This document shows positions 2,189 to 26,914 of a stretch of 64,000 nt of DNA, piece after piece. A model generated the notes under the pieces. The model had not been told where the DNA came from and did no database searches. It worked only from the letters and a program-made list of their open reading frames with translations. A program made the position numbers and the translations under genes. Source of the stretch: Hyphomonadaceae bacterium (GTDB taxonomy: Bacteria; Pseudomonadota; Alphaproteobacteria; Caulobacterales; Hyphomonadaceae); NCBI GenBank assembly GCA_028285145.1, contig JANQQC010000060.1, positions 1-64,000 of the forward strand. Direction: 5' to 3'. Numbering within the stretch: position 1 is the stretch's first letter; the number at the start of each line of letters is the position of its first letter.

Positions 2189-3097
2189 ATGAAGATCGCA
2201 TTTATCGGTTTGGGCAATATGGGGTCGGGTATGTGCCTCAATCTGATTAAAGCTGGACACGAGGTGAAAGTTTTCGATCTGGATGATGCAGCGGTCGACG
2301 CCATGGCTGCTGCCGGCGGAAAAACGGCCGGGTCAGCATCGGAGGCGTCGCAAGATGCAGCAATCATTGTGACCATGCTGCCGGCGGGCAAACATGTTCG
2401 CAGCGTCTACTTCGGAGAAGGTGGTGTGGCAGGCGCAGCGCCAGCAGGGGCATTGTTCATCGACTGCTCCACAATCGCTGTAGACGATGCCCGCGCTGCT
2501 TCGCGCGAGGCGAGCGAAGCCGGTTTTGTCATGGTGGACGCTCCGGTGTCAGGCGGTGTGGCGGCGGCGGCGGCTGGCGCGCTGACCTTCATGGTCGGTG
2601 GAGCCAGGGAAGCGTTCGATCGAGCCCGGCCCATACTGGAGCTGATGGGATCCAAGATCGTTCATGCCGGGGATGCCGGAAACGGACAGGCCGCAAAGAT
2701 TGCGAACAATATGCTTCTGGGTGTCTCGATGATCGCCACTTGTGAAGCATTTGATCTGGCACAAAAGCTCGGACTGGACGCTCAAAGCTTTTTTGACATT
2801 GCATCAATGTCGTCCGGCCAAAACTGGTCGATGACATCTTACTGTCCTGTGCCCGGTCCGGTTCCTGCTGCGCCTTCAAATAATGATTATGCCGCCGGAT
2901 TTGCAGTCAGTATGATGCTGAAAGATCTCTCCCTGGCGACCGATGCATCAGACAGCGTCGGTGCGGGTTCGAGTTTTGGACGGATGGCGCAGTCCATTTA
3001 TGAAGCTCTCAATGACCAAGGGCATGGCGGTAAGGACTTCTCCGTCATTATGCAGCATCTAGATCGCAGCCATATGGCGGACTCAGAATCCGCCTGA
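2189..3097 (+). CDS. mmsB: 3-hydroxyisobutyrate dehydrogenase
   Basis: A 302-residue beta-hydroxyacid dehydrogenase. The NAD-binding motif GLGNMGSGM is at residues 7-15, the substrate-binding motif DAPVSGG at about 117-123, and the catalytic lysine is K170 in GNGQAAKIANN. It would oxidise 3-hydroxyisobutyrate to methylmalonate semialdehyde, the substrate of the mmsA product at the start of the window. It is last in the four-gene cluster, 55 bases after the acyl-CoA dehydrogenase, and is followed by a hairpin terminator. Confidence 0.93.
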   Translation: MKIAFIGLGNMGSGMCLNLIKAGHEVKVFDLDDAAVDAMAAAGGKTAGSASEASQDAAIIVTMLPAGKHVRSVYFGEGGVAGAAPAGALFIDCSTIAVDDARAASREASEAGFVMVDAPVSGGVAAAAAGALTFMVGGAREAFDRARPILELMGSKIVHAGDAGNGQAAKIANNMLLGVSMIATCEAFDLAQKLGLDAQSFFDIASMSSGQNWSMTSYCPVPGPVPAAPSNNDYAAGFAVSMMLKDLSLATDASDSVGAGSSFGRMAQSIYEALNDQGHGGKDFSVIMQHLDRSHMADSESA

Positions 3098-3117
3098 TGC
3101 GGCCTTTAAGTCTGCGT

Positions 3118-3135
3118 AGCGCTTGAAGCGCTTTT
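3118..3135 (+). terminator. Hairpin terminator after mmsB
   Basis: AGCGCT, a three-base loop and AGCGCT again form a self-complementary six-base-pair stem that runs into TTTT. It lies 21 bases after the mmsB stop. The stem is short, so this is a modest candidate for the end of the valine operon. Confidence 0.5.
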
Positions 3136-3313
3136 ATCCGCCTTCTTGGCGGGCGTTCACCAGAATAATTCAAGGCAATCGTTTCATGTCCTGTCGTGAT
3201 CTGGGAGCATTCCAACGATGTGGATCTTGCATGACGGGATGTCCATATTGGCGTCGCATGTGCCTTGACGGCCATGATAGGGGCCCAAGTCAACGGCTCA
3301 GCGATCCGGACCA

Positions 3314-4543
3314 TTATCGGTCATCAACGATCCTAAGCGTCGCGATATGAGCATCGATCTTTGAGGCTGCGTCACCCGATAAAGGAAGATGCGTTTTCTC
3401 AGCTCGCCAAACCTCATTGAACCGGTCGACAGTGTCTCGTGCAGCTTGTCTGACCAAGGGCTCAGGAAGCCCTGCTTTTGCTGACAGATAGGCCAACTCA
3501 TCAAGTGTGAGCTCGGTCATTTTCTTTGTGCGGGCATATTTGAGCGCTACATGCTCATCGTCGATATACGCGATGGTCGAGACAAAGTCATAAGCTGGCG
3601 AGATGCTGGGATTGCGGCGATCGCGATAGATCAGGGACCAGTTTTTCAGGTGCATGTCGGCATTGCCGACCAGCGTGTTGAAAACCAGGCGTCGAATAAA
3701 CTCTTCGATGTCGGCATTGCTCGTTTCGATGGCCAAGACTTTTGCGATGCTGCGATACGAGGCTTTCTCATATTTCTTCTGTGGCATCACCCCGAACACC
3801 TGCGCGAAGTCTTCTATGTGAATCCGGTCGCCCTGATCGCTTCGGTCAAAACGCCTTATGGCGAAGACCGGCTCCTGGATCCGGCTGAGTTCCGGCGGCA
3901 GGCCATCAATTGCGTCATGGGCGACAAGATCAATGTCGGGTACGTCGATGCCGATGAGTGATGCAAGGCGCATCATTGAGTATTCGTTTTCTGGAACGCG
4001 CGCATAGGTCAGGGAAGGGAGCTTTGCGATCCAGTCGCCGCCGGTCCCGTCGATGGGAATGGTCAGTCCGCCATTGGCCGCTTTGACAGCGGAGAATTTA
4101 AGTTGCACGCCGGCCAGGGAAAAGCGAAGCGCATTGGAGCGCGCAGGAGATGCATTTTGATCCTCTGCAAGATCAACGTCTTCAAGCCAGCTGCGACCGT
4201 CGGGGGCCGTGACGTCCATCGCGCCGGGCAGATCCTGCCCAAGCGCCCATAGCAGGAAGAATTCCCGAACCGCTTTGACGCCGGCACGCTTGGCGAGATA
4301 TTCGCGCAAGGGTCCTTCCGGGAGGAGGTTAGAGAAGAACGGGGCGAGGCTCGTCTTTGTTGGCCGCAATTGCTCGATCAACCCGCCGGTCTGGTCTTTA
4401 AATGACAGGCTCAAGGTCGGTCGGTTCGGATCGGCGATATAGTCTTCTGTGAATGAGAAGATGGACCGGTCGCCAGGCTGGAGGGTGAGCTTGCCAATCA
4501 CCTCATCATATAGACGAACATCAAGCACGCGAACATCACTCAT
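3314..4543 (-). CDS. hipA: HipA-family serine/threonine kinase toxin
   Basis: About 409 residues from the ATG at 4543. Residues 5-90 form the HipA N-terminal subdomain, followed by the HipA-C kinase fold: a glycine loop FSLAGVQLKF near 141-150, the ATP-binding lysine in WIAKLPS (about K174), the catalytic stretch NADMHLKN (D296, N301) and the metal-binding PAYDFV (D319). E. coli HipA phosphorylates glutamyl-tRNA synthetase and causes persistence; the target here is unknown. The frame stays open upstream to 4633, but ATG at 4543 (or 4549) gives the normal N-terminus and a short overlap with the end of hipB, as expected for a co-translated pair. Confidence 0.9.
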   Translation of the reverse strand: MSDVRVLDVRLYDEVIGKLTLQPGDRSIFSFTEDYIADPNRPTLSLSFKDQTGGLIEQLRPTKTSLAPFFSNLLPEGPLREYLAKRAGVKAVREFFLLWALGQDLPGAMDVTAPDGRSWLEDVDLAEDQNASPARSNALRFSLAGVQLKFSAVKAANGGLTIPIDGTGGDWIAKLPSLTYARVPENEYSMMRLASLIGIDVPDIDLVAHDAIDGLPPELSRIQEPVFAIRRFDRSDQGDRIHIEDFAQVFGVMPQKKYEKASYRSIAKVLAIETSNADIEEFIRRLVFNTLVGNADMHLKNWSLIYRDRRNPSISPAYDFVSTIAYIDDEHVALKYARTKKMTELTLDELAYLSAKAGLPEPLVRQAARDTVDRFNEVWRAEKTHLPLSGDAASKIDAHIATLRIVDDR

Positions 4544-5111
4544 CGTCATCGTCCAGACTGTAGGCGGGGCGCGGTGCGCTTTCGCTTTCCAAGACGCCAT
4601 GAGCCTTTTCATTTCGGAGGCGAATAAGCGCACGTAAGATCGGGGTCAGCGCGTCTAGGCTACCCGGTGTTGCATTGCTGAGTGCTGTGCGAGCCTGTTT
4701 CAGTAAAGATAGGTCGGTTTCTGTCAGGCCCACTACAGAAAGACCGGGAAGCACATTCTTCGCCCGTTTGAGCAAAAAATTGTCCGGTTGCTCAACAAGA
4801 AAACGCTCCAAGTTTCCTTCGATGTTCCTTAGAAATTCGGCTTTGCGCTTTGGATCGGCGTCCATCGCCTTCTCGCGAGTCATCGCCTTGATGGCGGGCA
4901 AATGGTGCCGCTCGGCGAGAATGACTTCCAGGCCTAGCGTGCGTGCAAGATCGATGAGGCTCGAGAGACGCAGATCGATGTCGCCGTTTTCGATCTTCGA
5001 GATGCGAGCCTGATCGGTTCCGGCTGCGTCGGCGAGGGCGCGCTGACTGAGGCCGCGCCGCTCGCGCGCGGCCTTCAGCGATTGTCCAATATCTTCGAGG
5101 GCATAGGTCAT
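4536..5111 (-). CDS. hipB: HipB-like antitoxin with long C-terminal extension
   Basis: 191 residues, about twice the length of E. coli HipB (88). Residues 7-62 are a Cro/C1-type helix-turn-helix (RRGLSQRALADAAGTDQ then ISKIENG), followed by a hydrophobic strand (LGLEVILAER) typical of HipB dimerisation. Residues 75-190 are extra: charged and mostly helical, ending in an acidic tail with four aspartates. It lies directly upstream of hipA with an eight-base overlap. Two matching 18-bp palindromes precede the start, so autoregulation by the HipBA complex is likely. Function of the extension is not known to me. Confidence 0.85.
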   Translation of the reverse strand: MTYALEDIGQSLKAARERRGLSQRALADAAGTDQARISKIENGDIDLRLSSLIDLARTLGLEVILAERHHLPAIKAMTREKAMDADPKRKAEFLRNIEGNLERFLVEQPDNFLLKRAKNVLPGLSVVGLTETDLSLLKQARTALSNATPGSLDALTPILRALIRLRNEKAHGVLESESAPRPAYSLDDDDE

Positions 5112-5141
5112 GATGTCTTTTCAATCATATTTTTCAGAAAA

Positions 5142-5159
5142 AATGTACAATAAAACATC
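5142..5159. promoter_or_regulatory. Probable HipB operator 1 (proximal)
   Basis: AATGTA-N6-AACATC, an imperfect 18-bp dyad 31 bases upstream of the hipB start. Its second half-site is identical to that of the perfect dyad 44 bp further upstream, with the same six-base spacer length and a similar AT-rich spacer. E. coli HipB operators are also 18-bp dyads, though of different sequence. Confidence 0.6.
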
Positions 5160-5185
5160 TGATGACAGGTTTACAAGCGATATTC

Positions 5186-5203
5186 GATGTTCAATTAAAC
5201 ATC
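5186..5203. promoter_or_regulatory. Probable HipB operator 2 (distal)
   Basis: GATGTT-N6-AACATC, a perfect inverted repeat of six-base arms, 75 bases upstream of the hipB start. The 44-bp centre-to-centre distance from operator 1 is close to four helical turns and would let two bound dimers lie on the same face of the DNA. Confidence 0.65.
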
Positions 5204-5218
5204 AAATCGGAATTTGAT
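5201..5218. promoter_or_regulatory. Third 18-bp dyad overlapping operator 2
   Basis: ATCAAAT-N4-ATTTGAT is a perfect seven-base inverted repeat that starts inside the right arm of operator 2. It could be another regulator site or simply AT-rich symmetry; its half-site differs from the two proposed HipB operators. Confidence 0.3.
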
Positions 5219-5305
5219 GATTCATTGATCATAATCTAGAGAGTGAGGCGAACGGACCCTCTTGGCTCCGGGCCCAGTATCCTCCAGCTTCAATGCTGAG
5301 CGTGC

Positions 5306-5572
5306 TCACCCAAATCCAATATCGCTTCGGCCGTGCACAGTTGAGATTTCGGCAGCACTCTCGAACGCACTGTCAGCGACGTCCCAGCCGCTAAGCTGAT
5401 CAAAATCGATCCCAGTAATCGCAGAGATTATGGAGATCGGGACGCGTTTGGTTTCATAATCCCCAAACGCCTCTTCAGGGGTCGGCAGGAGATTCTTCTG
5501 TGTGTGACGATAGCCGGTCACCCGCATCCGACCATTTTCTTCAGCCATAGAAACGGTGTAGTTGCTTACATA
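5306..5572 (-). pseudogene. C-terminal remnant of a DNA/RNA non-specific endonuclease
   Basis: The last 88 or so codons of a minus-strand reading frame resemble the C-terminal part of NUC1/endonuclease-G type nucleases: MRVTGYRHTQKNLLPT, then FGDYETKRVP and ITGIDFDQLSGWD, matching the family pattern of a strand, a Q-x-x-L-L-P loop, FG-x-(Y/F)-x-T-x-x-VP and TGLDF. The half of the enzyme that should contain the DRGH catalytic motif is missing. Upstream, the frame runs antisense-like through the end of the NTF2-like gene and shows no family motifs. It is therefore a truncated relic, with the breakpoint near 5575. Confidence 0.6.
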
Positions 5573-5579
5573 TCTTCGA

Positions 5580-6011
5580 CTAGTCGACGTTGCTTGAAAA
5601 TGGAAACGCCTGGTCAAGAAAGTGAGAGACGTCGGCGTAAACACGCCAGTCGAATATCTGCATCTCACCACCTTCGGACCGGAAGCGATAAACATCCGTG
5701 CAGGGGAGTTTGAACTCGGCACCCGTCGACGCGCGTCTGAAACGTGAGTCGGCTTCGATGATCACTGTGTCTTTGTGCTCGAGAACCAAATGAGAGTCGT
5801 GGCCCAGCCAGGTTACGATGCTGCGTTGCCACGTCATGTATTCTTCGATTCCCGAGACGCCAAGAAAAGCGGGTCGACCGGCGACATGATAAGCCACATC
5901 GGATGTAAACCATTTGGCGGCCGCTTCCCAATTCCCCGAACCAACATCGGCTTCCATCGCGACGACGTGATCAATAAGTTGGCCTTGTTCGATAATCGGT
6001 TCGGGTTTCAT
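5580..6011 (-). CDS. NTF2/SnoaL-like small protein
   Basis: 143 residues from the ATG at 6011 (MKPEPIIEQG). The pattern of an N-terminal helix (LIDHVVAMEADVGSGNWEAA), a strand-helix with WFTSDVAYHVAGRPAFLGVSG, and late strands FKLPCTDVYRFR and MQIFDWRVYADVS fits the cone-shaped NTF2-like fold used by SnoaL cyclases, ketosteroid isomerases and many uncharacterised proteins. No ligand can be inferred. A longer version from a TTG at 6155 is possible; neither start has a clear ribosome-binding site. It abuts the nuclease remnant, which suggests a rearrangement joined them. Confidence 0.6.
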   Translation of the reverse strand: MKPEPIIEQGQLIDHVVAMEADVGSGNWEAAAKWFTSDVAYHVAGRPAFLGVSGIEEYMTWQRSIVTWLGHDSHLVLEHKDTVIIEADSRFRRASTGAEFKLPCTDVYRFRSEGGEMQIFDWRVYADVSHFLDQAFPFSSNVD

Positions 6012-6155
6012 AAAAATCTTTTGCTGGCTTACTGTGGTCTTGAGTCCCACCTCTAAAAACTCCCACAGATCTCGCAAGTCCTTTTGATTGAAGGTCTGAG
6101 TGTCGAGCGGCTGCCAATTTAACGGAAATGATCGAGCGACACGAAACTGTTTCAA

Positions 6156-6505
6156 AGCCTAGCTAAGGAACAAGGGCAATCTCCAACGAGACCTCCCGTC
6201 CTGGTGATTGCGTGGCACCATGTCACCGCCTGGGACAGGGCAACTGGTGAGGGTGACGCACGAACAGGACCGTCGGCGCGAGCCGACGGTCATCTCGTAG
6301 GGCTTAGAGTTTCCAACCCAAGAGCCCTTACCCATCGGTCAGCGGCGGATGTGACTCCGGCTCGAAGATATATCATCCGTATACAAATGAAAAACCGGCC
6401 GACTTCATAAAATCTTTCCTAATGTATCATTGAAGCGAGATTGCGCCCGACCGTCCGGCCACTAGCTCTGCTGCGGTCAAAATCGACCAAGCGAGGGGAA
6501 CCGCT
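6156..6505. other. Gap without a convincing gene; contains a perfect hairpin
   Basis: No open frame here has protein-like character. The notable structure is at 6268-6291: GACCGTCGGC, a GCGA loop, then GCCGACGGTC, a perfect ten-base-pair stem closed by a GNRA-type tetraloop. No T-run follows, so it is not a classical terminator. The remainder is AT-richer than the flanking core genes. Confidence 0.5.
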
Positions 6506-6727
6506 ATGACTGCTTTGACTTGGTTAAGACCTCGACATTTTTCATCACTTCTTCCGAGCACAGCGCTGGCCATTCTCATATCTGACACGGCGATGGCTCA
6601 GAGCCATGAGAGAAATGATCAAGCTCAGATGTGCTATCCGTCGAACGTGAACCTGTTTCAAGCAACGAAAAGATGTCCCGAATGCAAAGTATCTACGGCT
6701 TCCACAAAGTGGTGGAAACGTGCGTGA
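6506..6727 (+). CDS. Small putative exported protein, possibly frameshifted
   Basis: 73 codons with a plausible signal peptide: a basic start, a hydrophobic stretch (SLLPSTALAILIS) and a cleavage site after AMA near residue 31. GAGGGG at 6492-6497 is a reasonable ribosome-binding site. The C-terminal part is rich in Cys and Lys and matches nothing I know. A second frame from about 6619 to 6747 also reads as plausible protein (IYGFHKVVETCVRNDPYQLG near its end), so the real gene may switch frame near 6610-6670, either by mutation or by a sequencing error. Confidence 0.35.
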   Translation: MTALTWLRPRHFSSLLPSTALAILISDTAMAQSHERNDQAQMCYPSNVNLFQATKRCPECKVSTASTKWWKRA

Positions 6728-24295: not shown

Positions 24296-24312
24296 ACTCC
24301 AAGGAAGATGTG

Positions 24313-24639
24313 ATGAAAGATATCGGCAAGATCATGCAGCAGGCGCAGGCCATGCAAAAGCAAATGGCTGAGGCGCAGGAGAAGATCGAGGCGACCGAAG
24401 CCACCGGCGTTGCCGGGGCCGGTCTGGTCTCTGTCACGCTCAAGGGCAAGGGCGAACTGGTCGGCCTGAATATCGACCCGTCCCTCATGAGCGATGAGGC
24501 CGAGATCGTTGAGGATCTCATCAAGGCGGCTCATTCCGATGCGCGTCGAAAGCTCGACGAAGCCATGGAAGAGGCCATGAAGGAAGCCACCAAGGGCCTC
24601 GGTGGCGGCCTGATGCCGGGCTTCAAGATGCCCTTTTAA
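24313..24639 (+). CDS. ybaB: YbaB/EbfC nucleoid-associated protein
   Basis: 108 residues: an N-terminal coiled helix (MQQAQAMQKQMAEAQEKIEATEATG), a small beta domain (LVSVTLKGKGELVGLNIDP) and a C-terminal helix, the standard YbaB layout. These dimers bind DNA without strong sequence specificity. AAGGAAG five bases upstream supports the ATG at 24313. It keeps the usual dnaX-ybaB linkage, but recR is displaced by two citrate-synthase-like genes. Confidence 0.93.
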   Translation: MKDIGKIMQQAQAMQKQMAEAQEKIEATEATGVAGAGLVSVTLKGKGELVGLNIDPSLMSDEAEIVEDLIKAAHSDARRKLDEAMEEAMKEATKGLGGGLMPGFKMPF

Positions 24640-24640
24640 T

Positions 24641-25708
24641 TCAGGCTGCTTCGGGCATCGGTCCGCGATAGACAGATTTCGGACGGACAAGCCGGCCTTC
24701 CTCGATCTGCTCGCAGGCATGGGCAATCCAACCAAGCACGCGCGCGCAGGCAAACACGGCGGTGAAGGCATGGCGCGGAATGTTCAGCGCTTCCAGAAGC
24801 AACGCGGTGTAGAATTCGACATTCGTTTCCAGCGCCCGCTGCGGATACTTTTTCGCGAGACGATGCAGCACTTCACTTTCGATATGCTCTGCGAAATCGA
24901 GCCGGCCAGCTGTGTCCGGCAGCCGGTTGATAGCCGCCTTAAGTGCATCGGCGCGTGGATCGCGGGCGCGATAAACCCGGTGACCAAAGCCCATCAGCCG
25001 CTCGCCGCGTGCAAGCGCATCGTCAATCCAGCGTTCCGCGTTTTCAGGCACGCCGATATCGTCCAGCATATCGAGAACCGGTCCCGGCGCGCCGCCATGC
25101 AGTGGTCCTTTCAGGGCTGACAGGCCGGCAATCGCTGCTGACGTCAGGCCCGCGCGTGTTGAGGCAACGACACGGGCCGCGAAGGTCGATGCGTTGAGGC
25201 CGTGATCGCAGACCGTTGCAAGATACGCGTCCAAAGCCCGTACGGCGTCCGGCGTCGGCATTTTACCGGAGATCATCCAGAGGAAGTCCGCCGACGTTGA
25301 AAGGCCGGGATCGGGCGCAACAGGATCAAGCCCGGCCGCACGCCGGATGGCTGCAGCCGTGAAAACAGGGCCAGAGGCCGCGACCTGAATGGCCGTCTCC
25401 AGTGTTTCCTGATCATCCAGCGTCGCCCAGCCGAAACGAAGCGCACCGACCGTGTCGAGAGCAGATTCGGGTTCTATCATCGTGGCGAAAGCCTGCTCCC
25501 GAGCAGGGCCAAGTCTTGCGCCAAGCTCGCGCGCGTCCGGCAGGTCTTCGAAAAAGCCCGACCAAAGGAGATGCGCCACGTCTTCAAAGGCGAGCGAAGC
25601 CGACAGCGTTTCCACTGGCCAGCCTCGAATAACGAGCCGACCCTTCTCTCCATCAACGTCCGACAACACCGTTTCAGCGGCGACGATATGCTCAAGTCCT
25701 GTGTCCAT
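24641..25708 (-). CDS. Citrate synthase-like protein with Asp-to-Glu active-site change
   Basis: 355 residues, shorter than the housekeeping enzyme (about 430). The two active-site histidines are present, H204 in KGPLHGGAPG and H243 in GFGHRVYRARDPRA, plus DHGLNAST. The catalytic aspartate, usually in NVDFYSG, is glutamate here (E298 in TNVEFYTA). This could be a citrate, methylcitrate or citramalate-type condensing enzyme, or one with altered activity. It converges on ybaB with one base between stops and is divergent from the HTH-containing paralogue. Confidence 0.85.
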   Translation of the reverse strand: MDTGLEHIVAAETVLSDVDGEKGRLVIRGWPVETLSASLAFEDVAHLLWSGFFEDLPDARELGARLGPAREQAFATMIEPESALDTVGALRFGWATLDDQETLETAIQVAASGPVFTAAAIRRAAGLDPVAPDPGLSTSADFLWMISGKMPTPDAVRALDAYLATVCDHGLNASTFAARVVASTRAGLTSAAIAGLSALKGPLHGGAPGPVLDMLDDIGVPENAERWIDDALARGERLMGFGHRVYRARDPRADALKAAINRLPDTAGRLDFAEHIESEVLHRLAKKYPQRALETNVEFYTALLLEALNIPRHAFTAVFACARVLGWIAHACEQIEEGRLVRPKSVYRGPMPEAA

Positions 25709-25763
25709 GTGTTCTGCCTTTCATTTGGCCGCTAAGTCGGACAGGACTTGCTTGTCGTCAATC

Positions 25764-25780
25764 TTGATCAATATAATCAA
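25764..25780. promoter_or_regulatory. Dyad between the divergent citrate-synthase genes
   Basis: TTGAT-N7-ATCAA, with an internal perfect TTGATCAA palindrome at its left end, lies 4 bases before the proposed ATG at 25784 and 56 bases from the other start. Overlap with the ribosome-binding region of the HTH gene suggests autorepression. I inferred this from position and symmetry only. Confidence 0.4.
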
Positions 25781-25783
25781 TAC

Positions 25784-26914
25784 ATGAAATGGATTGACCG
25801 GAATGAAGCCATCTCCCGTCTTGGGGTGAAGCCACAGACGCTGTACGCCTATGTCAGCCGGGGCCTCGTGGCCTCGCGACCGCAGGAAGAGGATCCGCGT
25901 GTCAGCGCCTATTCTGCGGCGGATATCGATGCCCTGATCAAGCGCCGACGGAGTGGGCGGGGGCGGGAAGCGATTGCATCGGCCGCCATTGCCTGGGGCG
26001 ATCCAGTGATGACGACCCGGATTACCACCATCAGAGATGGCCGCCTGATTTATCGCGGCCACGATGCCGTTGAGTTGGCGGAGACCTCAACACTGGAGTC
26101 CGTCGCTGCACTGCTCTGCGGCGAGAATGATCCAGCCGAGGCATCAAGGATGAGTGCGGGGGCAAGTGGGGAGACCGGCAAGGCACGCATCCTGTCATTT
26201 CTGGCGGGACGCGCCGAATCCGACCTTCCAACATTCGGAAGGGCACCAACGTCGCTCGCGCGCGAAGGGCTTGGCCTTTTATCAGGGGTCTGCGCAGCGG
26301 CGGCGGGTCATCAGGGCAGGGGCTTTTGCCATCAGACGCTGGGCAGGCTCTGGCAGCTCTCTCCCGGCGGGATTGATCTGCTGAGGCGCGCGCTGGTGCT
26401 GCTGGCGGATCATGAGCTGAACCCCTCGACCTTTGCCGCCCGGGTCGCAGCCTCGACCGGCGCGCCACTCGCAGCATGTGCACTGGCGGGATGTGCGGCG
26501 CTGAGCGGACCGCTTCATGGCGAGGCGTCTGCCCGTGCACTGGCCTATCTGCGGCGTGCGGAAACCGAAGGCGCGCAGGCAGCGCTTGCAGACTTGGCGG
26601 CCCGAAGGGAGCGTCCACCAGCTGTCGGACATCCGCTTTATCCCGCTGGTGACCCACGTGCAGCCGCGCTGCTTGAGTGGATGCAATTGCCAGATAGCGT
26701 TGCCGGAGCGATCGTCGCTGCTGAAGACGCTTCCGGGGATCCTGCAAACATAGACATGGCGCTGGCCGCGCTGACAGTGTCGCTCGGGCTTACAGATGAT
26801 GCGCCGTTTCTGTTGTTTGCATGCGGCCGGATGGCGGGCTGGATCGCCCAAGCCATAGAGCAGTCGGCCAGTGGCGCGCCGATCCGCCCAAGAGCATCAT
26901 ATGCAGGCGACTAG
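25784..26914 (+). CDS. Helix-turn-helix/citrate synthase fusion protein
   Basis: 376 residues. Residues 1-55 are a MerR/excisionase-like winged helix (WIDRNEAISRLGVKPQTLYAYVSRGLVAS, then AYSAADIDALIKRR). From about 75 the citrate-synthase fold begins with TTRITTIRDGRLIYRGHDAVELA, with the histidine motifs GPLHGEAS and VGHPLYPAGDP and an aspartate in the NIDMALAAL segment. It could be an enzyme with a DNA-binding module or a metabolite-sensing regulator. ATG at 25784 is chosen because it starts the HTH; no strong ribosome-binding site is seen. Confidence 0.82.
   Translation: MKWIDRNEAISRLGVKPQTLYAYVSRGLVASRPQEEDPRVSAYSAADIDALIKRRRSGRGREAIASAAIAWGDPVMTTRITTIRDGRLIYRGHDAVELAETSTLESVAALLCGENDPAEASRMSAGASGETGKARILSFLAGRAESDLPTFGRAPTSLAREGLGLLSGVCAAAAGHQGRGFCHQTLGRLWQLSPGGIDLLRRALVLLADHELNPSTFAARVAASTGAPLAACALAGCAALSGPLHGEASARALAYLRRAETEGAQAALADLAARRERPPAVGHPLYPAGDPRAAALLEWMQLPDSVAGAIVAAEDASGDPANIDMALAALTVSLGLTDDAPFLLFACGRMAGWIAQAIEQSASGAPIRPRASYAGD

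Follow-up and report, generated by a model that had tools for sequence, protein, structure and literature searches.

Organization of the locus

Two divergent genes related to citrate synthase are located in the window, by which we mean the whole stretch of 64,000 nucleotides that was analysed, and both open reading frames named in the original prediction were recovered. The first gene, hereafter A, occupies positions 24641..25708 of the minus strand and encodes a CitA-type (PRK12350) citrate synthase of 355 aa. The second, hereafter B, occupies positions 25784..26914 of the plus strand and encodes a regulator-like protein of 376 aa, in which a helix-turn-helix (HTH; about residues 1-57), a linker with little order and a citrate synthase domain of reduced length (about residues 80-376) follow one another. 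A putative operator, GTCAATCTTGATCAATATAATCAA, lies directly 5' of B on the plus strand (25757..25780).

The pair sits between ybaB (24310-24639) and recR (to 27565), as had been remarked earlier. This location is real in the genome itself but we reject it as meaningful: ybaB, recR or dnaX was found beside the pair in none of the fetched relatives, and the insertion site is thus incidental. An ordinary synthase gene, which we take as gltA, is present on another contig of the same genome, so that A and B are extra synthase-type genes.

Gene A belongs to the CitA subfamily

A matches the Citrate_synt domain with 325 bits and exceeds the curated NCBIfam cut-off of NF009005/PRK12350 (433 bits against 332), and the solved structure nearest to it is CitA of Bacillus subtilis (2c6x). 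The catalytic Asp is replaced by Glu in A ('ETNVEFY'), which the original prediction had singled out. The replacement is present but not abnormal, for the same Glu occurs in 36 of 36 A orthologues (35 by pattern, and L014, which reads 'TNAEYY', by eye) as well as in the solved CitA structures of B. subtilis ('TNVEFY', 2c6x) and Mycobacterium tuberculosis ('ETNVEFW', 8gmf). An inactivating lesion was therefore rejected, Glu being the norm of the subfamily. The synthase signature, searched in both A and B with a PS00480-like pattern, is intact in all 36 A proteins. Since the Glu is normal, the signature is kept, and the probable orthologue CitB complements gltA (see below), an active citrate (or citrate/methylcitrate) synthase is the most likely identity of A. 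No prpB was detected in the genome at E<=1e-30 and genes for methylmalonyl-CoA mutase were found, which makes a methylcitrate cycle, or a methylcitrate signal, unlikely in this organism.

Domain architecture of protein B

The N-terminal part of B (25784..25954, plus strand) had been described as a MerR-like HTH, and the assignment holds. The Pfam domain HTH_17 is weak in B of the window (E=0.016, below the Pfam cut-off) and matches at E<=0.01 in 12 of 19 B orthologues, with the best value at 2e-5. The modelled HTH was aligned, with middling Z scores throughout, to Pukovnik Xis (Z 7.7, rmsd 1.9, 53 aligned), to SoxR bound to DNA (Z 6.8, rmsd 3.6, 65 aligned) and to BldC bound to DNA (Z 6.8, rmsd 2.5, 54 aligned), and with a moderate score to RacA bound to DNA. 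When Foldseek was run with only the HTH, no E value fell below 0.018 and many winged HTH families scored close to one another. On these grounds the N-terminus of B is placed among the MerR/HTH_17-type winged helices, in the range of MerR, BldC and Xis. The HTH is also the most conserved block of B, its LYAYVSRG motif being nearly invariant where B proteins share only 35-45% overall identity, and the degeneration that had been named as an argument against a DNA-binding role is thus not seen. DNA binding by this domain is suggested by the operator footprint described below.

The C-terminal part matches Citrate_synt (PF00285) with 179 bits in Pfam, and the predicted fold of B is closest to real synthases (Foldseek E ~1e-12, TM ~0.7, for the model). 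The best NCBIfam synthase score of B is 124 bits against a curated cut-off of 421, and public records name the protein 'citrate synthase family protein' or 'citrate synthase'. A phylogeny of both proteins had been proposed as a check; in our quick maximum-likelihood tree, the 49 B domains all group together with full support, in a single clade that excludes A, gltA and prpC.

The catalytic and oxaloacetate-binding residues (His, Asp and Arg equivalents) are all retained in 44 of the 49 B proteins. The synthase signature G[FYAV][GA]Hx[IV]x(1,2)[RKTQ]xx[DV][PS]R is found in one of 50 and gone in the other 49. It surrounds the third His at the CoA side, near which a basic residue of citrate synthases points towards CoA, and part of the domain length is lost too. 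Because the CoA-side signature is lost and the oxaloacetate/citrate residues are kept, a tricarboxylate or oxaloacetate would be a better ligand candidate for B than acyl-CoA; of the two signals originally put forward, acyl-CoA is disfavoured and oxaloacetate stands.

The retained catalytic residues, which would be unnecessary for a pure sensor, are a point in favour of a trigger enzyme, as is the nearness of the predicted fold to real synthases. B would then still catalyse a reaction, as a synthase (perhaps a specialised one) or a lyase, and would also bind its own operator, with regulation coupled to turnover; either the turnover of oxaloacetate/acyl-CoA or a reaction intermediate bound in B would be relayed directly to transcription. 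If true, B would be the founding member of a new regulator family for the citrate/methylcitrate pathway, spread across Proteobacteria. We consider it unlikely in view of the missing signature and the shortened domain, and also of the failure of the probable B orthologue CitC to replace E. coli gltA (PMC7083601), although another acyl-CoA may be used. A regulator derived from an enzyme, with the synthase domain as its sensor, is the reading that we favour.

A conserved element upstream of gene B

By comparing the upstream regions of B genes we found a nearly invariant element directly ahead of the B start, which in the wider class takes the form of GTCAATnTTGAT, seven free bases and ATCAA, and which gives the operator consensus GTCAATnTTGAT-N7-ATCAA. 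The copy in the window ends 3 bp ahead of the ATG of B, lies 48 bp from the start codon of A, and overlaps a TATAAT hexamer (25772-25777). A classical MerR promoter has a 19-20 bp spacer, with the operator placed between -35 and -10; in the window, a search for a consensus sigma-70 promoter found none, and what the site overlaps is the hexamer. GTCAATNTTGATN7ATCAA occurs in 18 exact copies among 241 alphaproteobacterial genomes, and 17 of these precede a matched B start by 4-67 bp on the same strand; with one mismatch allowed, a site precedes 22 of the 32 B genes. The 61 closer relatives contain 12 exact copies, of which 11 are located at B. A query with a 6-bp spacer matched at no B gene, the usual spacer being 7. 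Sites were also found before B in Caballeronia, Ensifer, Ewingella and Pseudoroseomonas, and the element recurs in most of the examined B loci from outside Alphaproteobacteria. An exact match in G256 lies within a der/engA-like gene and was taken as chance.

The element is conserved as DNA and not as protein, as it contains an in-frame stop in L016 and its distance to the ATG shifts the frame in L014. For this reason the ATG at 25784 is preferred as the start of B over the less well placed TTG at 25748, and translation of the 5' stretch as B coding sequence (NLDQYNQY) was ruled out.

The genome under study contains a single exact site, which fits a local regulator; the search for a wider regulon yielded just two matches with three mismatches, without clear gene context, and the idea was rejected. 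Such a restriction of the operator to B loci is what one would expect to see if B were an autoregulator acting at its own operator. The site is absent in four order-level genomes whose B is not paired with A (L019 and L021-L023), three of them with decayed pockets. As a side observation, L021, L022 and L023 (genus-level group g11) have kept the HTH and lost A, the operator and the catalytic residues, and look like a natural decay series of the sensor domain.

The same element bears on the possibility that B is a duplicated citrate synthase of the ordinary kind whose HTH has no function, in which case the element would be a promoter, an attenuator or the site of some other regulator. The TATAAT hexamer within it, close to the B start codon, is what such an explanation would draw on. 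We regard it as improbable: no consensus sigma-70 promoter was found at the site, the preservation across classes of 24 bp with an unvarying 7-bp spacer goes beyond what an ordinary promoter would show, and the sites track B and no other gene. The position of TATAAT six bases before the ATG of B (25772-25784 of the window) suggests, in addition, a leaderless B transcript.

Linkage of the two genes and divergent neighbours of B

B was found in 32 of the 241 alphaproteobacterial genomes, or about one in eight, and A in 25 of them. A adjoins B in divergent orientation in 21 of the 25 A-bearing genomes (Fisher p=1.6e-18, without correction for relatedness), so the lack of linkage that had been named as counter-evidence is not observed; the four A genes without B barely clear the family cut-off (334-336 bits). 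The check whether the two genes always co-occur came out negative. Around a third of the B genes within the class, and almost every one outside it, lack A; there the operator is usually still present and another gene is divergent from B. The tight adjacency across alphaproteobacteria, together with the fact that citrate synthases are dimers whose active-site residues are shared across subunits, would suit a mixed A-B synthase in which B is a regulatory subunit and the HTH a docking module that does not bind DNA, but this is the least probable of the explanations weighed here, in view of the many B genes without A that mostly keep the operator, and of the HTH conservation and the operator itself, which it would leave unexplained.

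The genes that face B where A is absent are diverse. Family III CoA transferase genes were identified by Pfam in L076 and L078, by annotation in Ewingella, and by sequence likeness in L152, L154, L156 and L161. Others encode a DUF2332 protein (L075 by Pfam, L077 by likeness), a cupin (L074), a methyltransferase (L079 by Pfam, L158 by likeness), a 2-hydroxyacid dehydrogenase-like protein (L155), a TTT/Bug-like binding protein (L159, by eye) and a gltA-type synthase (L081). With divergent targets as varied as these, no single shared ligand suggests itself. The recurrence of CoA transferases facing unpaired B genes (L076, L078, L098, L152, L154, L156 and L161) suggests a shared acyl-CoA/organic-acid theme.

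B is faced by prpB in three genomes (L149, L150 and L151) that do not belong to the class and are presumably Gammaproteobacteria in the wide sense. The clearest arrangement was seen in L150 (G373; 2989-6517), where prpB, then prpC and then the start of an acnD-like gene are divergent from B, with prpB (520 bits) and prpC (725 bits) both above the curated cut-offs. In a fourth genome, L157, an incomplete acnD fragment with TIGR02333 as its best match faces B. The B protein of L150 may regulate the methylcitrate cycle, and as a candidate for that role it differs from the PrpR types known so far.

Proposed function of B

We propose that B is an enzyme-derived, autoregulated one-component transcription factor, whose synthase domain senses a di- or tricarboxylate and which controls the divergent gene, and we assign this reading a probability of about 0.72. 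A regulatory role is well supported by comparison between genomes, namely by the fold, the conserved HTH, the operator with its restriction to B loci, and the linkage to A. The idea of a metabolite-controlled switch made of an enzyme and a DNA-binding relative, with which the original prediction had started, gains support from the operator between the two genes, their tight linkage, and the conserved HTH and ligand pocket.

In the proposed mechanism, B is the product of a fusion between a winged HTH of the MerR/BldC/excisionase type and a citrate synthase domain. As a dimer or higher oligomer, B itself would bind the putative operator over the -10-like TATAAT near its own start, and would in this way control the transcription both of its own gene and of the divergent one, which in this genome is A. 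Citrate, 2-methylcitrate or oxaloacetate may fill the conserved substrate pocket and shift the synthase domain between its open and closed forms, which would alter the placing of the HTH and DNA binding by what is probably dimer-mediated allostery. The outcome would be that expression of the synthase is under feedback from its own substrate or product. The sign of regulation is something we infer, with autorepression as a guess because the site covers a -10-like hexamer.

As to the ligand, which is likewise deduced, the methylcitrate genes facing B are the clearest pointer, since 2-methylcitrate is the product of an enzyme with the citrate synthase fold and the pocket of B keeps the matching residues. 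In organisms without the methylcitrate pathway, citrate or oxaloacetate is more plausible.

A family annotated as 'citrate synthase' thus appears to be a transcription factor, with a reach of about one in eight of the sampled alphaproteobacterial genomes and several families outside the class. If this is true, the annotation of B-type 'citrate synthases' would be corrected, a reason would be offered for why CitC of Caulobacter does not act as a synthase, and some bacteria would gain a candidate regulator for their methylcitrate-cycle genes. It would also provide a testable case of an enzyme of central metabolism turned into a sensor.

Comparison with known systems

In B. subtilis, citA is divergent from the gene of the LysR-type regulator CitR. 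CitA is thus similar to A both in its catalytic Glu (2c6x) and in having a divergent regulator gene; CitR, however, is a LysR protein, whereas B is itself a relative of citrate synthase.

The adjacent citrate synthase paralogues CitB and CitC of C. crescentus (CCNA_03757/03758; PMC7083601) resemble A and B, and a PRK12350 match was found in the C. vibrioides control genome. CitB is a probable orthologue of A and CitC of B. citB restores the growth of an E. coli gltA mutant and its neighbour citC does not (PMC7083601), as expected if the two correspond to A and B. Unlike our reading of B, CitC is not described there as a DNA-binding protein. In S. coelicolor, the neighbouring putative citrate synthase genes sco5831/sco5832 share an intergenic MtrA site (PMC12323332), which is possibly the same arrangement in another phylum.

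PrpR has target genes that overlap with those of B in some genomes outside Alphaproteobacteria (prpB, prpC and acnD). It is of the sigma-54 type in enterobacteria and of a different type in M. tuberculosis (PMC6765138). Its architecture is unrelated to that of B, whose sensor has the citrate synthase fold.

A published regulator with a citrate synthase domain was not found in the open-licence literature. MocR/GabR proteins combine a winged HTH of the GntR type with an aminotransferase (PLP-fold) domain. They are like B in carrying an enzyme-derived effector domain on a winged HTH, and differ in both parts, B having a MerR/BldC/Xis-type HTH and a citrate synthase fold. Enzyme-derived one-component regulators are already known (MocR/GabR; BzdR, PMC3602430), and one based on citrate synthase appears to be undescribed. 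In BzdR/BoxR, which control catabolic genes, an HTH is joined to a shikimate-kinase domain sensing benzoyl-CoA (PMC3602430), and the combination of a DNA-binding domain with an enzyme-fold sensor is shared with B. The HTH type and the enzyme fold are different, and no sequence relation is claimed; moreover, shikimate-kinase activity has been lost in BzdR/BoxR (PMC3602430), whereas B has kept its catalytic residues.
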